Shown here piece after piece: positions 1,563 to 47,899 of a stretch of DNA of 64,000 nucleotides. The notes under the pieces were generated by a model. That model made no database searches, was not told where the DNA came from, and saw only the letters and a program-made list of their open reading frames with translations. Source of the stretch: Luteimonas panaciterrae (GTDB lineage Bacteria > Pseudomonadota > Gammaproteobacteria > Xanthomonadales > Xanthomonadaceae); NCBI RefSeq assembly GCF_020511115.1, contig NZ_JAJAVH010000004.1, positions 1-64,000 of the forward strand, read 5' to 3'. Numbering within the stretch: the first letter of the stretch is position 1; each line of letters opens with the position of its first letter. A program made the translations under genes and the position numbers.

Positions 1563-2693
1563 TCAGCGATCCGGCGTGAATTCCACCGGCACCAATACCG
1601 TCGATGCGACCGGCTTGCCGTTGCGCACGGCCGGCGTGAAGCGCCAGCGCATGACCGTGTCGTGCGCAACGCGATCGAGTTCGCGCACGCGGCTGCGACG
1701 CGCGAAATCGACCTTCGTCGGTCTGCCATCCGGGCTGACCGTCACGCGCAACACCACCAGACCGCCTTCGCCTCCGCGCAATGCCTCGCGCGGGTAGGGC
1801 GGCTTCGGACTCTGGCCCGGAATCGGCTTGGCTGCCGTCGTCGTCGGACGTGGTTTCTTGTCCTTCTTCTCTTTCTTCGGCTTCTTGGTCTCGGTCTGCT
1901 TGGCGACGACCTTCTTCTCCGCCTGCGGCTCGACGGTGTTCTGCGGCGGCGTTTGTGCCTGCTGCAAAACCTGCGTCTGTCGCTGTGCCTCGTCGATGGC
2001 CGCCTGCAGTTCCTTGGTGGCCTCCGCGAACGCACTGGTGCCCTGCGGGACCGGGCGATGCAGGACCGGATCGGTATAGGTATGGGAGATCAGCACCAGT
2101 GCGCCGACCGCAACGGCGATCAGGAGCAGGCCCAACGGCACCAGCCAGCGGCTCGACTTCGTTCCCGGCAACAGCGTCCGTGATTCGGCGGGTGGCGCGG
2201 GTGGCGGGGAGGGTGTTGTCGGCGCGGTCGGCGCGACGGCCGTCACCGACAGCGGGAAGGCGCGCTCCTGATCCATGTGCAGGATCGAGATGCGGCCGCT
2301 GTTGAGTTCGGCGGCGATCTCCGGCGTCGCGTGCAGCGCGGCGGCGACCCGATCGAGCGTGATATCGGCCTGCGGGCTCCGCCGTTCCTTGTCCTTGAAG
2401 CGCCAGCGGTTGTACTCCGCCCATAGGATCAGCAGGACGGTTGCCGCGATGGCGATCAACGGCAGCGCCAGGATCAGGAACGGATCGATCTGGTGCTCGC
2501 GCAGGTACAGCTCGAAGATGGTGGTGCGGATGCCGAACAGCCACAGCACCAGCGTCAGCAGCGGCAGCCACAGATAGAGATACAACGCCCAGAACGCGGC
2601 GGTGATGATGCCGAAGAAGGAGCGGTGCAGGGTAGGTTGAGCACTCGGCTTGCTGATGATGCGCGGATCGAATTTTCCCCGGGCGGCGTTCAT
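1563..2693 (-). CDS. pgaD: PgaD fused to a TonB C-terminal domain
   Basis: A 376-residue protein in the pgaD position. Residues about 1-140 look like PgaD, the partner of the PgaC glycosyltransferase: two membrane helices (about 27-53 and 72-92) with a W/Y-rich stretch, then a cytoplasmic part. Unlike ordinary PgaD (about 130-150 residues) it continues with a proline-rich linker (152-169), a third membrane helix (183-203), a glutamine-rich helix, a lysine-rich segment (258-282) and a TonB-type C-terminal domain (296-376; PYPREALRGGEGGLVVLRVTV, then the VMRWRFTPA motif). The C-terminal part should therefore reach into the periplasm. The ATG at 2693 overlaps the pgaC stop (ATGA), so translation is coupled. 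The fusion is read directly; its role is unknown. Confidence 0.85.
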   Translation of the reverse strand: MNAARGKFDPRIISKPSAQPTLHRSFFGIITAAFWALYLYLWLPLLTLVLWLFGIRTTIFELYLREHQIDPFLILALPLIAIAATVLLILWAEYNRWRFKDKERRSPQADITLDRVAAALHATPEIAAELNSGRISILHMDQERAFPLSVTAVAPTAPTTPSPPPAPPAESRTLLPGTKSSRWLVPLGLLLIAVAVGALVLISHTYTDPVLHRPVPQGTSAFAEATKELQAAIDEAQRQTQVLQQAQTPPQNTVEPQAEKKVVAKQTETKKPKKEKKDKKPRPTTTAAKPIPGQSPKPPYPREALRGGEGGLVVLRVTVSPDGRPTKVDFARRSRVRELDRVAHDTVMRWRFTPAVRNGKPVASTVLVPVEFTPDR

Positions 2694-3937
2694 CGCAACC
2701 CCCGGTCCGGGCTGACCCAGGTCGCGCGTTGCCGGCGCCGCTTCAGCAGCGTCTTCGGCACGGCGGTGACCGTGGTGAGCAGGCTGAGCAGCCAGTATGC
2801 GATCGGATACCAGATCATCCAGTAGTAGTTGCGGCCGACGCGCGCTTCGTAGCGGCGGTCGATGATCAGGCTGGCCGCGAACTGGGTGAGGCAGACCATG
2901 GCCAGGATCACGCCATGCCACGACGGCAGGATGCTGCGCACTTCCAACTGCGCGGGCATCTGCACGAACAGGCCGATCGCCCACAGCAGCATGATGAACA
3001 CCATGATGTAGGCCCAGACCACGCTGAGCAGGTATTCGAACAGCACCAGCCACATGCGGCGCTTGCGCCAGCTCAGCAGGTCACTGGTATGGCGTAGCAT
3101 GACCTCGACGCCGCCCTGGGCCCAGCGCAGGCGCTGCTTCCACAAGCCCTTGAGGGTTTCGGGCATCAGGATGAAGCACAGCGCGCGCGGCTCGTAGCGG
3201 ATGTCCCAATGGTCCATCTGCAGGCGCCAGCTGATGTCGATGTCCTCGGTGATCATGTCGTCGGACCAGTAGCCGATCCGATGCAGGGCGGTACGACGAA
3301 ACGCGCTGATCACGCCCGAGACCGTGAACAGCCGTCCGTACACGCGTTGTGCGCGCTTGATCATGCCGATGATCGAGGAGAACTCGCCCACCTGCAGGCG
3401 GCCGAGCAGGGTGGAGCGGTTGCGGATGCGCGGATTGCCGGTCACCGCGCCCACGCGCGGCCCCGACATCAGATGCCACACCATCCAATGCACGGCGTAC
3501 TCGTCGAGCAGGGCGTCGCCGTCAATGCAGACCAGGTATTCCGAACGCGCCGCCAGCGCGCCCATGCGCATGGCGTTGGCCTTGCCGAGATTGCGGTCGA
3601 GGTGGACCACGCGCAGCCGCTCGTGCTGCGCGGCGAGCTGATTGAGTTGCTCGGCCGTGTCGTCCTTGCTGCCATCGTTGATGGCGATGACTTCGAAATC
3701 CGGATAACGCTGCGCGAGCGCGGCGCTGATGGTCTCGCGGACCTGTTCACCCTCGTTGAAGCAGGGGATCAGGACCGAGACCAGCGGCGTGGACGCCAGA
3801 GGCGGCGGCTCGATGCGTGGCCGCTCTTTCCGTTCGCGACGGAAGTAGTAGTACAGACCGCCGGAAATCCAGAAGAAGGACATCACGATCGGGTACAGGA
3901 ACGCGAACTGGAACAGCAGGGCAATCACCGGCGCCAT
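2690..3937 (-). CDS. pgaC: Poly-beta-1,6-N-acetylglucosamine synthase
   Basis: Membrane-bound family 2 glycosyltransferase, 415 residues, that polymerises UDP-GlcNAc into the biofilm polysaccharide PNAG. It has an N-terminal membrane helix, then the GT-A fold: VLIPCFNEGE, the DGSKDDT motif, the DGDALLDE acid motif, TEDIDISW and the QRLRWAQGG (QxxRW) product-binding motif, followed by several C-terminal membrane helices. Length and order match E. coli PgaC. It sits third in the pgaA-B-C-D operon, 4 bases after pgaB, and overlaps pgaD. Confidence 0.95.
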   Translation of the reverse strand: MAPVIALLFQFAFLYPIVMSFFWISGGLYYYFRRERKERPRIEPPPLASTPLVSVLIPCFNEGEQVRETISAALAQRYPDFEVIAINDGSKDDTAEQLNQLAAQHERLRVVHLDRNLGKANAMRMGALAARSEYLVCIDGDALLDEYAVHWMVWHLMSGPRVGAVTGNPRIRNRSTLLGRLQVGEFSSIIGMIKRAQRVYGRLFTVSGVISAFRRTALHRIGYWSDDMITEDIDISWRLQMDHWDIRYEPRALCFILMPETLKGLWKQRLRWAQGGVEVMLRHTSDLLSWRKRRMWLVLFEYLLSVVWAYIMVFIMLLWAIGLFVQMPAQLEVRSILPSWHGVILAMVCLTQFAASLIIDRRYEARVGRNYYWMIWYPIAYWLLSLLTTVTAVPKTLLKRRRQRATWVSPDRGLR

Positions 3938-3944
3938 CTTGGCT

Positions 3945-5840
3945 TTATCTCCTTAAGGGGTAGGGGAACCCGCGCGAGGAAATGATCTCGCGGGCCGTCT
4001 CCAGACGCGGTCTGTTGGCGATGAAATCGTCCGGATACCAGGCCAGATGGCGAACGCCCATCGCTTTCAGCTTGCGTGCCTGCTCCAGCAGGGTCTTGTC
4101 CGCGATCGGCTTGCGGCTGTTCCAGTCCACCGTCTGCAGTTCGAAGATGGTCTTGTCGAACTTCGGATCATGCTCGCCGACCATTTTCGCCAGGTGCTGC
4201 ATCCAGCTCCACGGACGGTCGCCGCTGCCTTCCAGCCACGGCATCGCCATCAGCGCGGTGTAGTCGTAGTAACGGTTGAACGTGTCCAGCCGCTGCGCGA
4301 ACCAGGCCTCGCTGGCGGGATCGATCACGGTGCGCGCGTACAGATTGCGCACCGTCTTCAGCTTCGAGCGCCAGTGTTCGGCGGTGTTCCTCAGATCGAG
4401 CGTGAAATCGATCAGCGCCTGCGTGCGCTTTGCGGGATCGTTGCCCAGCGAGGGCAGCTCGTTGTCGCGCAGGAAGGCATCGTCATGGAACAGCAGGCCC
4501 TGGAAGCTGCTGCTGGCGGCCATTTCATCGTAGATGCCTTCGATGATCTTGCGCGCTTCCGGCTTGGTGAAGTCGAGGCGATAGACGTCCTTGGAATCGG
4601 CATTGGCGATGCCGAGCTCGCGGCGCTTGTCCGCATCCGGCAGTTCGAAACCGAGCACGGGCAGCCAGGCATAGACCTGGGTTTGCGCGCGCGTCTGCAA
4701 CTGCCAGGCGACGAAGCTGAAGAGATCGGCGCGCATCGGCAGATAGCTGTTCGGGAAATACAGCGCGTCGGCGGAACCGTTGCCGTCGGGGTCGGCGAAG
4801 GCCTGCAGGAACACGTAGTTGGGGCCGATCTGCTTGATGCGTTCGATCAGCGCATCGATGTTGCGCGACTGCTGCTGCGGGTCGGCGTCGTAGACCGAAT
4901 CCAGATCCACCTGCACGGCGCGGATGCCGTCCAGGCGCAGATCGCGGCGCAGGTCGACAGCCAGATCGGCGGCGGTCGGATTGTTGGTGATCAGCATGCG
5001 GCCGAGGCCTTCCAGCCCGTGATCCAGCCAGGTCGTGCGGCCTTCGAGGTCGAAGGTCGCGGTCATGCCCAATTCCTTGGAAGTGTCGTTGGCGACGCCG
5101 TTCTCGGCGCCATACGGCCAGACCAGCGAACGCGGCGCGCGGCCGAGGTGCTGCTTGATCTTGTCGCGGCTGCGGGCGAGGTCGGCGCCGATGCGGGCAC
5201 GATAGGCGTCTTCATCCTCGTATTTGCCGTTGGCCGAGTCGTAGAGCAGCGTGACTGCCGCCGGGCGCTGGTTGCCTTGCGGATTGGCCAGCAGGCCCTG
5301 GTGCATGTTGTCTGTGTGCGATGCGACCTCGACCAGCCCGGAATCCTGCATTTCGCGCAGCTGTTCCCAGGTGACGAAATCGTCGTGGCCCATCGGGCGG
5401 CTGAACTGCACGGTCTGGCCTTGAGGCAGATCGACCCATGCCGTGATCACGGCGACCAATGCCGGGTAGTTGTAGGCGCGCAGCAACGGGAACACCTTGC
5501 TGTACACGCTGCGCAGGCCGTCGTCGAAGGTGAGCAGCACCGGTTTGCTCGGCAGCTTGGCGCGGCCGGCCGAGGCGTCGATGACCTGCTGCAGGCTCAC
5601 CGGGTGATAGCCCTGCGCATTGAGCCAGTCGAGGTGGCCGATGAAGTTCTGCGTGCTGATCGCGAACTGGTCGGGATCGCCATGCGGCGCGACGTCGTCA
5701 CGCACGTCGTGATAGTTCAGCACCAGCAGCGGCTCCGGCTGCGTAGCCGTTTCGGCTGCGGCCACGATGCCGCCGACGGGCAGCAGGCCGAGCAGCAGCA
5801 ACAGCAGGCCGAGCGGTCTCAGGAAACGATGACGATGCAT
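3945..5840 (-). CDS. pgaB: PNAG N-deacetylase PgaB
   Basis: Periplasmic enzyme of 631 residues that partly deacetylates PNAG before export. It has an N-terminal signal peptide (MHRHRFLRPLG plus a leucine-rich core), a polysaccharide deacetylase domain with TFDDG and the SHTDNMH metal-binding motif, and a C-terminal glycoside-hydrolase-like domain (LLFHDDAFLRDNE) as in E. coli PgaB. The start at 5840 gives the normal signal peptide; the frame could begin 17 codons earlier, but that extension would spoil it. It begins 4 bases after the pgaA stop. No lipobox cysteine follows the hydrophobic core, whereas E. coli PgaB is a lipoprotein. Confidence 0.93.
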   Translation of the reverse strand: MHRHRFLRPLGLLLLLLGLLPVGGIVAAAETATQPEPLLVLNYHDVRDDVAPHGDPDQFAISTQNFIGHLDWLNAQGYHPVSLQQVIDASAGRAKLPSKPVLLTFDDGLRSVYSKVFPLLRAYNYPALVAVITAWVDLPQGQTVQFSRPMGHDDFVTWEQLREMQDSGLVEVASHTDNMHQGLLANPQGNQRPAAVTLLYDSANGKYEDEDAYRARIGADLARSRDKIKQHLGRAPRSLVWPYGAENGVANDTSKELGMTATFDLEGRTTWLDHGLEGLGRMLITNNPTAADLAVDLRRDLRLDGIRAVQVDLDSVYDADPQQQSRNIDALIERIKQIGPNYVFLQAFADPDGNGSADALYFPNSYLPMRADLFSFVAWQLQTRAQTQVYAWLPVLGFELPDADKRRELGIANADSKDVYRLDFTKPEARKIIEGIYDEMAASSSFQGLLFHDDAFLRDNELPSLGNDPAKRTQALIDFTLDLRNTAEHWRSKLKTVRNLYARTVIDPASEAWFAQRLDTFNRYYDYTALMAMPWLEGSGDRPWSWMQHLAKMVGEHDPKFDKTIFELQTVDWNSRKPIADKTLLEQARKLKAMGVRHLAWYPDDFIANRPRLETAREIISSRGFPYPLRR

Positions 5841-5844
5841 GATC

Positions 5845-7914
5845 TTATTTACCCCAACGGAATTCGGCATCGAAGCCAAGATGACGCTCACGCTGCCCGT
5901 CGTAGACCGGGCGCGACCAGTTGACGCCGTAGACCAGCACCTGGCCGGTCGCGAATTGCCATTCGTGTTCGTAGCGCAGCGATGGCACCCAGGCGGTTCC
6001 GTAATCCTCCTGCCAGTAGGGCGCGACCGTCACCGTCAGGCGGTGGCGGAAATAGCGCTCGTACTCGCGCCACACGATCTGGTCGGCGCGCACGCCGAAT
6101 TCCAGCGAGGCATCGCGCGAGGGGTTGAAGTAGGGCGCGTCGTCGCGCGTGCCGCGGCTGGTGTAGATCGAGGCCAGGCCGTTGAGCAGGAAATGCGGTC
6201 GCGTGACCAGTCGCTGGTCGAGGTTCACGCCCAGCGACTGGCGGCGGTTGCCGTCGTCGAAACGATAGGCCTGCGCACTGGCCTGCACCGTGGTGAGTTC
6301 GCTCGGATGCCAATTGGCGGAAAGCGCGGCGGAGTCGGCGGTGATGCCGAACGCGCGGGCCTGCAGGGAGGCTTCCGGGTCGTACTTGCGCAGCGTCAGG
6401 CCGGCGTCGAAGACGTCGCTGAAGCGCCAGCCGACATCGAGGCTGGCGCCGGTGTTGTCGAGGTCGTCGTGGGAACGGTTGGCCTGCAGGTGCACGTCGA
6501 GGCGGTCATAGGTGTAGCGCACGCCAAAAGCGCCGCGGCGATCGTGGATGCGGCGGTCGTTGAAGTCGGCGTAGCGGTCCGCGTAGCCGGCGGTGAGACG
6601 CCAGCGGTCGCCCAGCAGCGGAGTTTCCGCCTCGATGCCATAGACGCCATCGCGCGAACCGACTGGCGAGACGTTGCTGCTGCCGTTGCTGTCGCTGCGG
6701 CCCCAGGCCGCGAATGCGCGCCACTGCCAGCCCACGTTCTGGTTCCAGCGGTCGCGCAGGGTGCGTGACTGCAGGGTGTCGGGATAGACCGTCTGCAATT
6801 CGTTGTAGATCGGACGCGCCTGTTCGACGCGCTGCAATTCCAGCAATGATTCGACTTGTCCTGTGCGGGCATCGATGCTTTGTGGATCGAGCGTGCTGGC
6901 GATGCGATGGCGTTCCAGCGCGCGTTCGTGCCAGCCGCGGCGATCGTAGATCGAACCGAGCGAGGACTGCACGCCGGAATCATCCGGGCCATAGGCACTC
7001 ATGGTTTCCAGCGTCTTCTGCGCGCCGGTCAGGTCGCCCGCGTAGGAGCGCACCATCGCTTCGTTGACCTCGGCGTGGTAGCGATCCCAGTTCTCGTAGG
7101 GCAGCGGGGCGCCGGGTACGGTGCGCCAGTCGGGATTCGCCTCGACCAGCGCCTTGAGCTCGGGCTGGGCGAGATCGAAGCGCTCGGCTTCCATGAGCGC
7201 GTAGGCGTGCATGATCTTGTACTGGACTTTCTTCGGATTGTCGTCCGGGATTGCCTCGATGGCTTTTTCCAGGACCGGAATCGCTTCCTTCGGCCGCTTC
7301 TGATCCATCAGCGAGGCGCCGATCGGGATCATCGCGTAGCCCGGGATGTCATATCCTTCGGCGCGCAGCTTCTCGTATTCCTCGACCACCTCGCGATGGC
7401 GTTCGAGCCTGTTGAGCAGGTCCAGCCGGTCGTAGCGCATGCGCAACGGCATTTGCGACGCATCGATCCCGGCACGCTTGAGATAGTCCTGATTGGCCGC
7501 TTCGACGGCGCGGGCCTCCTCGAGGCGCCGGGTTTCGTCGGCGACGAAGTATTCGCTGGCGGAGGTGAGCCGTGCCAGACGATCGAGCTCGATGCGCTGC
7601 GCCTCCTCGGCGCTGAACAGCTGCGGCTTGGCCTGATACAGCTGCCAGGCGCGCTCGCGGGAGCCGATCTCGCTCAGGGTGTGGACGCGCAGGACGTAAA
7701 GCGTGTCGTCGTCCGGATACTTGGCCGCGGTCTGCTCGATCAGGGAGAGGGCGGGGAGCCACTGCTTCTGGTCGCGCAATTGCCGGATCTCGGAAAGAGC
7801 GCTGTTTAGGCCCGAGGGCTGGCCGGTGCCGGACTGTGCCCAGGAGGGCGAGGCGGCAGCGGTCGCGAGCGCAACCGCCAGTGCGAGGCGGCACATCGAT
7901 GGAAAAGTCGGCAT
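5845..7914 (-). CDS. pgaA: PNAG export porin PgaA
   Basis: Outer-membrane exporter of the biofilm polysaccharide, 689 residues. A signal peptide ending SPSWAQ is followed by a periplasmic superhelix of TPR repeats over roughly the first 390 residues (for example the segment around DDSGVQSSLGSIYDRRGWHERALERH), then a C-terminal beta-barrel rich in alternating aromatic residues. It is shorter than the roughly 800-residue E. coli protein, with fewer TPRs. It is the first gene of pgaABCD, so the operon promoter should lie in the 256 bases before tRNA-Pro. Confidence 0.93.
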   Translation of the reverse strand: MPTFPSMCRLALAVALATAAASPSWAQSGTGQPSGLNSALSEIRQLRDQKQWLPALSLIEQTAAKYPDDDTLYVLRVHTLSEIGSRERAWQLYQAKPQLFSAEEAQRIELDRLARLTSASEYFVADETRRLEEARAVEAANQDYLKRAGIDASQMPLRMRYDRLDLLNRLERHREVVEEYEKLRAEGYDIPGYAMIPIGASLMDQKRPKEAIPVLEKAIEAIPDDNPKKVQYKIMHAYALMEAERFDLAQPELKALVEANPDWRTVPGAPLPYENWDRYHAEVNEAMVRSYAGDLTGAQKTLETMSAYGPDDSGVQSSLGSIYDRRGWHERALERHRIASTLDPQSIDARTGQVESLLELQRVEQARPIYNELQTVYPDTLQSRTLRDRWNQNVGWQWRAFAAWGRSDSNGSSNVSPVGSRDGVYGIEAETPLLGDRWRLTAGYADRYADFNDRRIHDRRGAFGVRYTYDRLDVHLQANRSHDDLDNTGASLDVGWRFSDVFDAGLTLRKYDPEASLQARAFGITADSAALSANWHPSELTTVQASAQAYRFDDGNRRQSLGVNLDQRLVTRPHFLLNGLASIYTSRGTRDDAPYFNPSRDASLEFGVRADQIVWREYERYFRHRLTVTVAPYWQEDYGTAWVPSLRYEHEWQFATGQVLVYGVNWSRPVYDGQRERHLGFDAEFRWGK

Positions 7915-8247
<333 letters not shown>

Positions 8248-8527
8248 ACTTGGGTGAGCCGCGCATTGTAGAGATGCGGGGTGGGGTCGGGCAAGCGTTC
8301 GTTCGCATTCCGGTGCCGGCGGGAAGATCGCGGGTGTTCGACCCGGCGCCACGCATGCGGGGCGCGTCGCCCTTGCGCGGGTTCCGCCGGCGTGGTCAGC
8401 CGCGTTGATTCTCCGTGCCATCGCGCCGGATGCAGCGGATGTCCGGCCGGCGTGATGCCAAGCGCGAGCCCCGCGACGTTAAACTGTAGGCAGCAATGCG
8501 CAGACGATCTGCGCCGGAGTCCTCCCC

Positions 8528-9931
8528 TTGATCAAGCCACGCACGCCCCCGGGCGTCCTGGAGCTGTTGCCCCGCGACCAGATCGCGTTCCAGCGCATGC
8601 TCGACACCATCCGCACCACGTTCGAGCGCTTCGGCTTCCTGCCGGTGGAGACGCCGGTGTTCGAGCTGTCGGAAGTGCTGCTGACCAAGTCGGGTGGCGA
8701 GACCGAGCGGCAGGTGTATTTCGTGCAGTCCACCGGCGCGTTGGAGAAGGCGGGTGACGGCTTGCCCGAGCTCGCACTGCGCTTCGACCTCACCGTGCCG
8801 CTGGCGCGCTACGTCGCCGAGCACGAGCACGAACTGGCCTTCCCGTTCCGCCGCTACCAGATGCAGCGTGTCTACCGAGGCGAGCGTGCGCAGCGCGGCC
8901 GCTTCCGCGAGTTCTACCAGTGCGACATCGACGTGATCGGCAAGGATGCGCTGTCGCCGCGCTATGACGCCGAGATTCCCGCGGTGATCCACGCCGTGTT
9001 CTCCGCCTTGAACATCGGCGAGTTCACCATCCAGCTCAACCATCGCAAGCTGCTGCGCGGCTTCTTCGAGGGGCAGGGCATCGCCGACGATCAGCAGGTC
9101 GCGGTGCTGCGCGAGATCGACAAGCTCGACAAGCGCGGCGAGGATGCGGTGCGGGCGACGCTGGCCGGAGAAGGCTTCGGCCTGTCTGATGAGGTGATCG
9201 ACCGCCTGATGACGTTCTCGCGTGTGCGTTCCAGCAATCATGACGATGCGCTGGCGAAGCTCGACGCGCTTGGTGCCGGAACGCCGCTGTTCGAGGAAGG
9301 CCGCGACGAATTGCGCGCGCTGCTGCAGCGGCTGCGCGCGATGGGCGTGCCGGAGTCGAACTATGCGATCAACCTGTCGATCGCGCGCGGCCTCGATTAC
9401 TACACCGGCATGGTGTACGAGACGCAGCTCGATGCGCATCCGCAGATCGGTTCGATCTGCTCCGGCGGCCGCTACGACAATCTCGCCAGCCATTACAGCA
9501 AGTCGAAGCTGCCGGGCGTCGGCATCTCGATCGGCCTGACGCGCCTGTTCTGGCAGCTGCGCGAAGCCGGCCTGATCGCGACCGCGGAAAGTTCGGTGCA
9601 CGTGCTGGTCTCGCTGCTCGACGACTCCGCGCTCGATCACGCGCTGGCTTTGTCGCAGCGCCTGCGCGCGGCCGGGCTCAATGTCGAAACCCAGCAGGAG
9701 CCGCGCAAGTTGGCGAAGCAACTGCAATACGCCGATCGCGCCGGTATCCGTTTCGTGGTGATCCGTGGCGAGGACGAAGCCGCGAAGGGTGTGGTGACGG
9801 TGCGCGATCTGCGCCGTGGCGAACAGTTCGAAGTGGCCGATGCCGAGATCGCCTCGGCGCTGCGCACCGAGCTGGAACAGGCCAGGTTGGAACAGGCCAA
9901 GCTGCAACTGCGCGCGTCGCCACAATCCTGA
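8528..9931 (+). CDS. hisS: Histidyl-tRNA synthetase
   Basis: Class II aminoacyl-tRNA synthetase of 467 residues that charges tRNA-His. Recognisable parts are [11 protein letters not shown], the motif-2 segment with [11 protein letters not shown], the histidine-binding motif [19 protein letters not shown] and motif 3 near [13 protein letters not shown], then the anticodon-binding domain. It starts with TTG at 8528 behind GGAG at 8516-8519 (spacing 8); no in-frame ATG lies upstream. The C-terminus carries a charged helical tail ([14 protein letters not shown]). An ammonia-lyase gene follows after 13 bases and is probably co-transcribed. Confidence 0.96.
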
Positions 9932-46779: not shown

Positions 46780-47445
46780 GTGCTGGAACTGGTGAAGGCG
46801 GGCGGCTGGCCCATGCTGCCCCTGGTGCTGTTGTCGGCGCTGGCGGTGGCGATCGTGGTCGAACGGTTCTGGGCGCTGCGGCGCAAGGCCGTGCTGCCGC
46901 CGGGACTGGGCAGCGAAGTGCGCGCCTGGGCGGCACGTGGCCGGCTCGATCCCGAGCACATCGATTCCCTGCGCGTGAATTCCCCGCTCGGCGCCCTGCT
47001 GGCGGCGGCGCTGGACGTGCGCAACCGTTCGCGTGAGGAAATCCGCGAGCGCGTCGAGGATGTGGGCCGCCATCAGGCCCATCGCATGGAACGCTATCTG
47101 AACGCTCTGGGCACCATCGCCGCGGCGGGTCCGCTGCTCGGCCTGTTCGGCACGGTGGTGGGCATGATCCAGATGTTCCTTGGCATCATGGACCACGGTG
47201 TCGGCGACGTCAGCCAGCTCGCCGGCGGCATCGGCAAGGCGCTGGTATGCACCGCGGCCGGCATGGTGGTGGCGGTGCCGGCGCTGATGTTCCATCGTTT
47301 TTTCCGCGCCCGGGTCGACGCCTATCTGGTCGACATGGAGCACGAGGCGATCCAGCTGATGGACGCGATCGATCCGCGCAATACGCGTCGTGCCGCTTCG
47401 CCGTCCGCGAACGCACCCGCGACATCATTGGCGGAGCAGGTCTGA
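46780..47445 (+). CDS. exbB: ExbB/TolQ-type proton channel subunit
   Basis: A 221-residue inner-membrane protein of the MotA/TolQ/ExbB family: an N-terminal helix (PMLPLVLLSALAVAIVVE), a cytoplasmic domain and two helices with the signature LGTIAAAGPLLGLFGTVVGM and ALVCTAAGMVVAVPALMFH. With ExbD it uses the proton gradient to drive TonB-like proteins. GTG start at 46780 behind GGAGGT. It opens the exbB-exbD-msbA-lpxK unit. Confidence 0.9.
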   Translation: MLELVKAGGWPMLPLVLLSALAVAIVVERFWALRRKAVLPPGLGSEVRAWAARGRLDPEHIDSLRVNSPLGALLAAALDVRNRSREEIRERVEDVGRHQAHRMERYLNALGTIAAAGPLLGLFGTVVGMIQMFLGIMDHGVGDVSQLAGGIGKALVCTAAGMVVAVPALMFHRFFRARVDAYLVDMEHEAIQLMDAIDPRNTRRAASPSANAPATSLAEQV

Positions 47446-47449
47446 TCGC

Positions 47450-47899
47450 ATGCGTATCCGCGACCGTCGCGCCGAGGACAATCCCGACATCAACCTCGTG
47501 CCGTTGATCGATGTGATCCTGGTGCTGATCATCTTCTTCGTGATCACCACCACCTTCGACATGCGCTCGGTGTTGAAGCTGGAACTGCCGCGCGCCGACG
47601 GCGAGCGCAGCGACGCGCAGGCGAAGACGCTCAACCTGCTGATCAATGCCGACGGCCGTTACTTCGTCGACGATCGCGAGGCGTTGCGCACCGATGTGGA
47701 ATCGCTCAAGCGCACCATCGCCGAGGTCGCGGGCAGCGACCGCGAACGCACCGTGCTGATCCGCGCCGACGCGCGCACGCCGTGGCAGGCCGTGATCACC
47801 GCCTACGACGCACTTGGACAACTGGGTTTCCGCCGCATCGCCAATGCCACCGCGCCGGAACAGCGTGGTGGTTCTGGCGGTTCGGGACAGGCGCGATGA
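47450..47899 (+). CDS. exbD: ExbD/TolR-type subunit
   Basis: A 149-residue single-helix protein. The helix reads INLVPLIDVILVLIIFFVIT and includes the conserved proton-path aspartate (LIDV). The periplasmic domain follows (SLKRTIAEVAGSDRERTVLIRADARTPWQAVI). It lies 4 bases after exbB; its stop overlaps the msbA start (ATGA). Confidence 0.92.
   Translation: MRIRDRRAEDNPDINLVPLIDVILVLIIFFVITTTFDMRSVLKLELPRADGERSDAQAKTLNLLINADGRYFVDDREALRTDVESLKRTIAEVAGSDRERTVLIRADARTPWQAVITAYDALGQLGFRRIANATAPEQRGGSGGSGQAR

Follow-up and report, generated by a model that had tools for sequence, protein, structure and literature searches.

PgaD, the family described by TIGR03940 and PF13994, is encoded after pgaC and has two membrane helices, and both of its termini are expected to be cytoplasmic. 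TonB has been proposed to bind peptidoglycan, and TonB genes do not all adjoin exbB and exbD. In E. coli, the contact between PgaD and PgaC is set by c-di-GMP (PMC8461298). TonB and TolA have in common a Ser-X3-His-X6-Leu-X3-Ser (SHLS) helix motif, whose Ser and His contact ExbB and whose His is essential (PMC12215075). A D-box strand following the TonB helix binds ExbD, and TonB C-terminal domains (TonB_C) attach by strand addition to short strands in outer-membrane receptors (PMC10907165). Several gene fusions have been reported in exopolysaccharide operons, namely glycosyltransferase-PgaB, BcsAB, and BcsZC (PMC7112194), in a paper that does not mention TonB. Like the gene described here, these fusions alter an exopolysaccharide export operon, but they join the pathway's own parts. 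PgaD and TonB_C are each known; no report of a PgaD-TonB protein was found in the literature searched, where a Lysobacter capsici paper notes the PgaD domain only, and the architecture may already be visible in protein databases.

The window, a 64,000-nucleotide stretch of the Luteimonas panaciterrae genome, contains a full pgaABCD operon on the minus strand, the last gene of which is a pgaD-tonB fusion. This gene occupies positions 1563-2693 as a single uninterrupted frame of 376 aa, with its ATG at 2693 and its stop at 1563. Upstream are pgaC, encoding the PNAG synthase (2690-3937, minus strand; TIGR03937, 652 bits), pgaB, encoding the PNAG deacetylase/hydrolase (3945-5891, minus strand; TIGR03938, 756 bits), and pgaA, encoding the outer-membrane exporter with its TPR region and barrel (5845-7914, minus strand; TIGR03939, 398 bits; PF21197), each over its NCBIfam equivalog cut-off. 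The fusion gene and pgaC overlap by 4 bases, at the start of the former and the stop of the latter. The Pfam and NCBIfam matches of PgaA did not include a receptor plug. We also considered whether a shorter PgaA offsets the added domain, and this was rejected since PgaA is about equally long in fused and unfused genomes.

The original prediction placed PgaD, a third membrane helix, and a TonB C-terminal domain in one frame, and the open frame, the domain matches, and hydropathy all agree with it. The PgaD domain (residues 12-142, 2268-2660; PF13994, E 7.6e-24) contains two membrane helices, and the fusion protein scores 115.9 bits against the PgaD equivalog TIGR03940, whose cut-off is 31.45 (NCBIfam). 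The protein shares with PgaD the N-terminal 145 residues, the two helices, the W..YN..RF motif, and the place after pgaC, and it differs in having about 230 extra residues that make up a third helix, a periplasmic linker, and TonB_C. The motif, WAEYNRWRF here, is intact after helix 2 in the fusions, and on this basis the PgaD part probably keeps its role. A cytoplasmic linker that contains proline follows (residues 143-183, 2145-2267; low pLDDT), and then the third helix (residues 184-205, 2079-2144), which was located by hydropathy, a motif test, and AF2 (helix at 184-205). Hydropathy alone placed the three helices at about 37-55, 72-90, and 184-202. The periplasmic linker (residues 206-295, 1809-2078), assessed by composition, dN/dS, and AF2, is rich in Lys, Gln, and Ala and fast-evolving; its approximately 90 residues compare with 86-105 across all fusions. 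The Lys-rich segment that had been remarked on is present in this species (15% Lys) but is specific to it, since four other fusions measured have only 4-8%. The chain ends in TonB_C (residues 296-373, 1575-1808; PF03544, E 5.7e-20), and both Pfam scores are far over their cut-offs. Because both ends of PgaD are expected to be cytoplasmic, helix 3 should lead the chain outward and place TonB_C in the periplasm, which is the normal side for TonB.

Structure prediction with AF2 used a 15-sequence alignment of fusion proteins as input. The model of the whole protein was weak (pLDDT 61, pTM 0.29) and that of TonB_C was good (pLDDT about 76-90 per block). Foldseek matched the TonB_C model to TonB C-terminal domains, the best being 6i97_D from a FoxA-TonB complex (E 1.3e-6, TM-score 0.83 by target length). 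A sequence search of the PDB gave convincing matches to TonB domains only and none for the PgaD part.

Next, pgaD genes were surveyed with TIGR03940 across order, family, class, and phylum genome samples. Loci with an open frame long enough for a fusion were selected, and their C-termini were read. The architecture does recur elsewhere: Luteimonas aquatica RIB1-20 encodes the same fusion protein (71% identity) between the same neighbors as here, hisS and an MFS gene, and 15 of the 20 pgaD-bearing genomes of a second genus, probably the sister genus Lysobacter, carry the fusion as well, the remaining 5 being unfused. The fusion-bearing genomes of this second genus are about 5-6.3 Mb in size. 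Within its own genus, the fusion was found only in the window genome and L. aquatica, giving 17 fusion-bearing genomes in total. No fused pgaD was present outside these two genera among the pgaD genes examined in the order, family, class, and phylum samples, and a search of a plasmid collection gave no match. Three other observations were made. At two loci outside the class, pgaD continues into a lengthy tail rich in Pro, Thr, Ser, and Ala, reaching 304 aa counted from the model start, with no TonB_C match. In six genomes, a second pgaD match lies on the same strand as the first at a distance of about 5.8 kb, which suggests tandem pga operons. One pgaC frame is stopped at 311 aa though the homology reaches the end, a possible pseudogene or assembly error.

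These data bear on whether a sequencing error joined two genes, in favor of which we found nothing and to which we give practically no chance. The same fusion in L. aquatica and 15 genomes of another genus excludes such an error, as in 17 separate genomes the frame is joined and its stop follows TonB_C. Scanning all retrieved loci with a TonB_C profile detected no tonB closer than about 1.5 kb to an unfused pgaD. The idea of a separate tonB next to pgaD in relatives was therefore dropped as well. The fusion is a genuine and inherited gene that selection maintains.

Conservation was examined by part of the protein. Between the two Luteimonas-type genes, dN/dS was 0.24 for PgaD, 0.23 for TonB_C, 0.48 for helix 3, and 0.57 for the periplasmic linker; pairs inside the second genus showed a similar but noisier pattern. 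The TonB domain is thus under purifying selection on par with PgaD, and TonB_C has many invariant columns among 15 proteins. Helix 3 is among the less conserved parts. No D-box strand was seen when the fusion alignment was inspected by eye. The cytoplasmic joining segment is modestly conserved and disordered in the AF2 model. One explanation to be weighed here is that the fusion is neutral or nearly so and that the TonB domain is a passenger doing little. Unfused relatives, including the 5 in the second genus, live without the domain, but it is intact in 17 genomes and its dN/dS is about 0.1-0.5 over nine pairs, and we consider a passenger improbable. Domain searches, fold prediction, topology, and conservation together support the architecture and the proposal that the synthase has gained a periplasm-spanning arm.

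A further proposal was that this arm links polysaccharide export to the proton gradient. Helix 3 would then join ExbB/ExbD, and the TonB domain would pull on PgaA or a TonB-dependent receptor, tying PNAG export or a surface signal to the gradient. The TonB_C fold is intact, the genome has ExbB/ExbD genes, and the linker is similar in length to that of canonical TonB, all of which is in keeping with such coupling. However, Ser-X3-His is absent from helix 3 in 15 of 15 fusions, as is Ser/Ala/Thr-X3-His; in the fusion described here, the sole His of the helix, His204, is at its periplasmic end. Helix 3 is also variable, reaching a dN/dS of about 1 in some pairs, and the linker is not proline-rich (10% Pro versus 43% in this genome's canonical TonB). 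An exbB-exbD pair is indeed in the window, at 46780-47899 and 44 kb from the fusion, as had been noted, but it is away from any tonB and immediately followed by an msbA-like ABC transporter gene, and so appears untied to pga. The canonical tonB-exbB-exbD genes are on another contig. As TonB genes do not all adjoin exbB and exbD, this distance is supportive evidence only. Canonical TonB shares with the fusion the TonB_C fold, a membrane anchor, and a periplasmic chain end, and it differs in having the conserved helix His and in adjoining exbB-exbD. With the helix motif missing, a linker low in Pro, a separate canonical tonB-exbB-exbD, and a window ExbB/ExbD pair untied to pga, coupling to the proton gradient is judged unlikely from these sequence features, and this part of the original prediction was not upheld. 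A His-less TonB could be driven in some other way. Lacking the parts that TonB uses to draw energy, the arm looks more like a tether than part of a motor, and the scaffolding role that had also been suggested for it is possible.

The origin of the fused domain was traced with trees of TonB_C, of which the alignment had about 84 columns and the deeper forks were weak. TonB_C of all the fusions formed one clade (support 99/91), whose closest relative was one of the two TonB-like genes located between aroA and serS. In this genome the pair is on the window's contig at about 88-89 kb. The two genes were seen at locus coordinates 7931-8578 and 8816-9520, with relatives across the family sample. Genes of this type also have a membrane helix without His, another point against coupling to the gradient, and their TonB_C is up to about 50-56% identical to that of the fusion, its sister clade; unlike the fusion, they are stand-alone, paired, and without PgaD. 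The fused domain probably stems from this pair. Canonical TonB was rejected as the ancestor since the tree groups the fused domain with the serS/aroA-type genes.

The PgaD halves of the fusions likewise formed one clade (support 93/96). The PgaC tree was compatible with the fused-clade grouping (p 0.13), and the PgaA and PgaB trees (p about 1e-4 and 4e-5) and the concatenated set (p 6e-6) rejected it. A single origin with vertical descent of the whole operon is therefore rejected by the PgaA and PgaB trees. As the pgaA and pgaB trees conflict with those of pgaC and pgaD, the operon of the fused genomes looks mosaic, and the fused gene looks like a unit of single origin set in differing operon backgrounds. 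These trees are most simply read as a single fusion, after which pgaD, perhaps together with pgaC, was exchanged among operons or pgaAB was replaced.

The mechanism that we favor, at roughly even chances, is that a TonB-like protein of the serS/aroA type, without the helix His, was joined to the cytoplasmic C-terminus of PgaD and that the resulting arm is an unpowered trans-periplasmic tether for the PNAG synthase. The joining most likely happened once. At the inner membrane, the PgaD part would still bind PgaC and c-di-GMP; helix 3 would carry the chain out of the cytoplasm, and the linker of about 90 residues would let the TonB-fold domain sit far out in the periplasm. There the domain may bind a fixed partner, for which peptidoglycan, PgaA/PgaB, and a Ton-box-like strand in some outer-membrane protein are candidates, and the synthase would thereby be kept aligned with the wall or the export apparatus with no use of the proton gradient. 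The pairing of fused pgaD with different PgaA/PgaB lineages speaks mildly against a contact specific to PgaA or PgaB, and a general partner such as the wall fits slightly better than a PgaA-specific one.

The main rival to the tether is a sensing role, in which the TonB domain would detect the state of the wall, the envelope, or the outer membrane and relay it through helix 3 to PgaD, altering the c-di-GMP-dependent contact of PgaC and PgaD. This would make use of the very subunit whose association with PgaC is governed by c-di-GMP (PMC8461298), and it agrees with the purifying selection on TonB_C. The disorder and modest conservation of the cytoplasmic segment that joins the two halves count against it, as does the lack of a known ligand, and we regard such a role as possible but rather doubtful.

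If the arm is a tether, a recycled TonB domain would strap the PNAG synthase, via its regulatory subunit, to the wall or the outer-membrane exporter, and one continuous path would lead from the inner membrane across the periplasm, a picture that we put forward tentatively. We know of no such continuous trans-periplasmic path in this type of operon, and, as far as we know, it is not settled how the inner-membrane PNAG synthase is positioned relative to PgaB and PgaA. A fusion that by nature equips the synthase with a domain spanning the periplasm offers a handle on this question, and because the bait is already in place, a pull-down with the TonB domain could identify the partner. The fusion further suggests that domains with the TonB fold can find new uses when the energy-coupling motif is missing.
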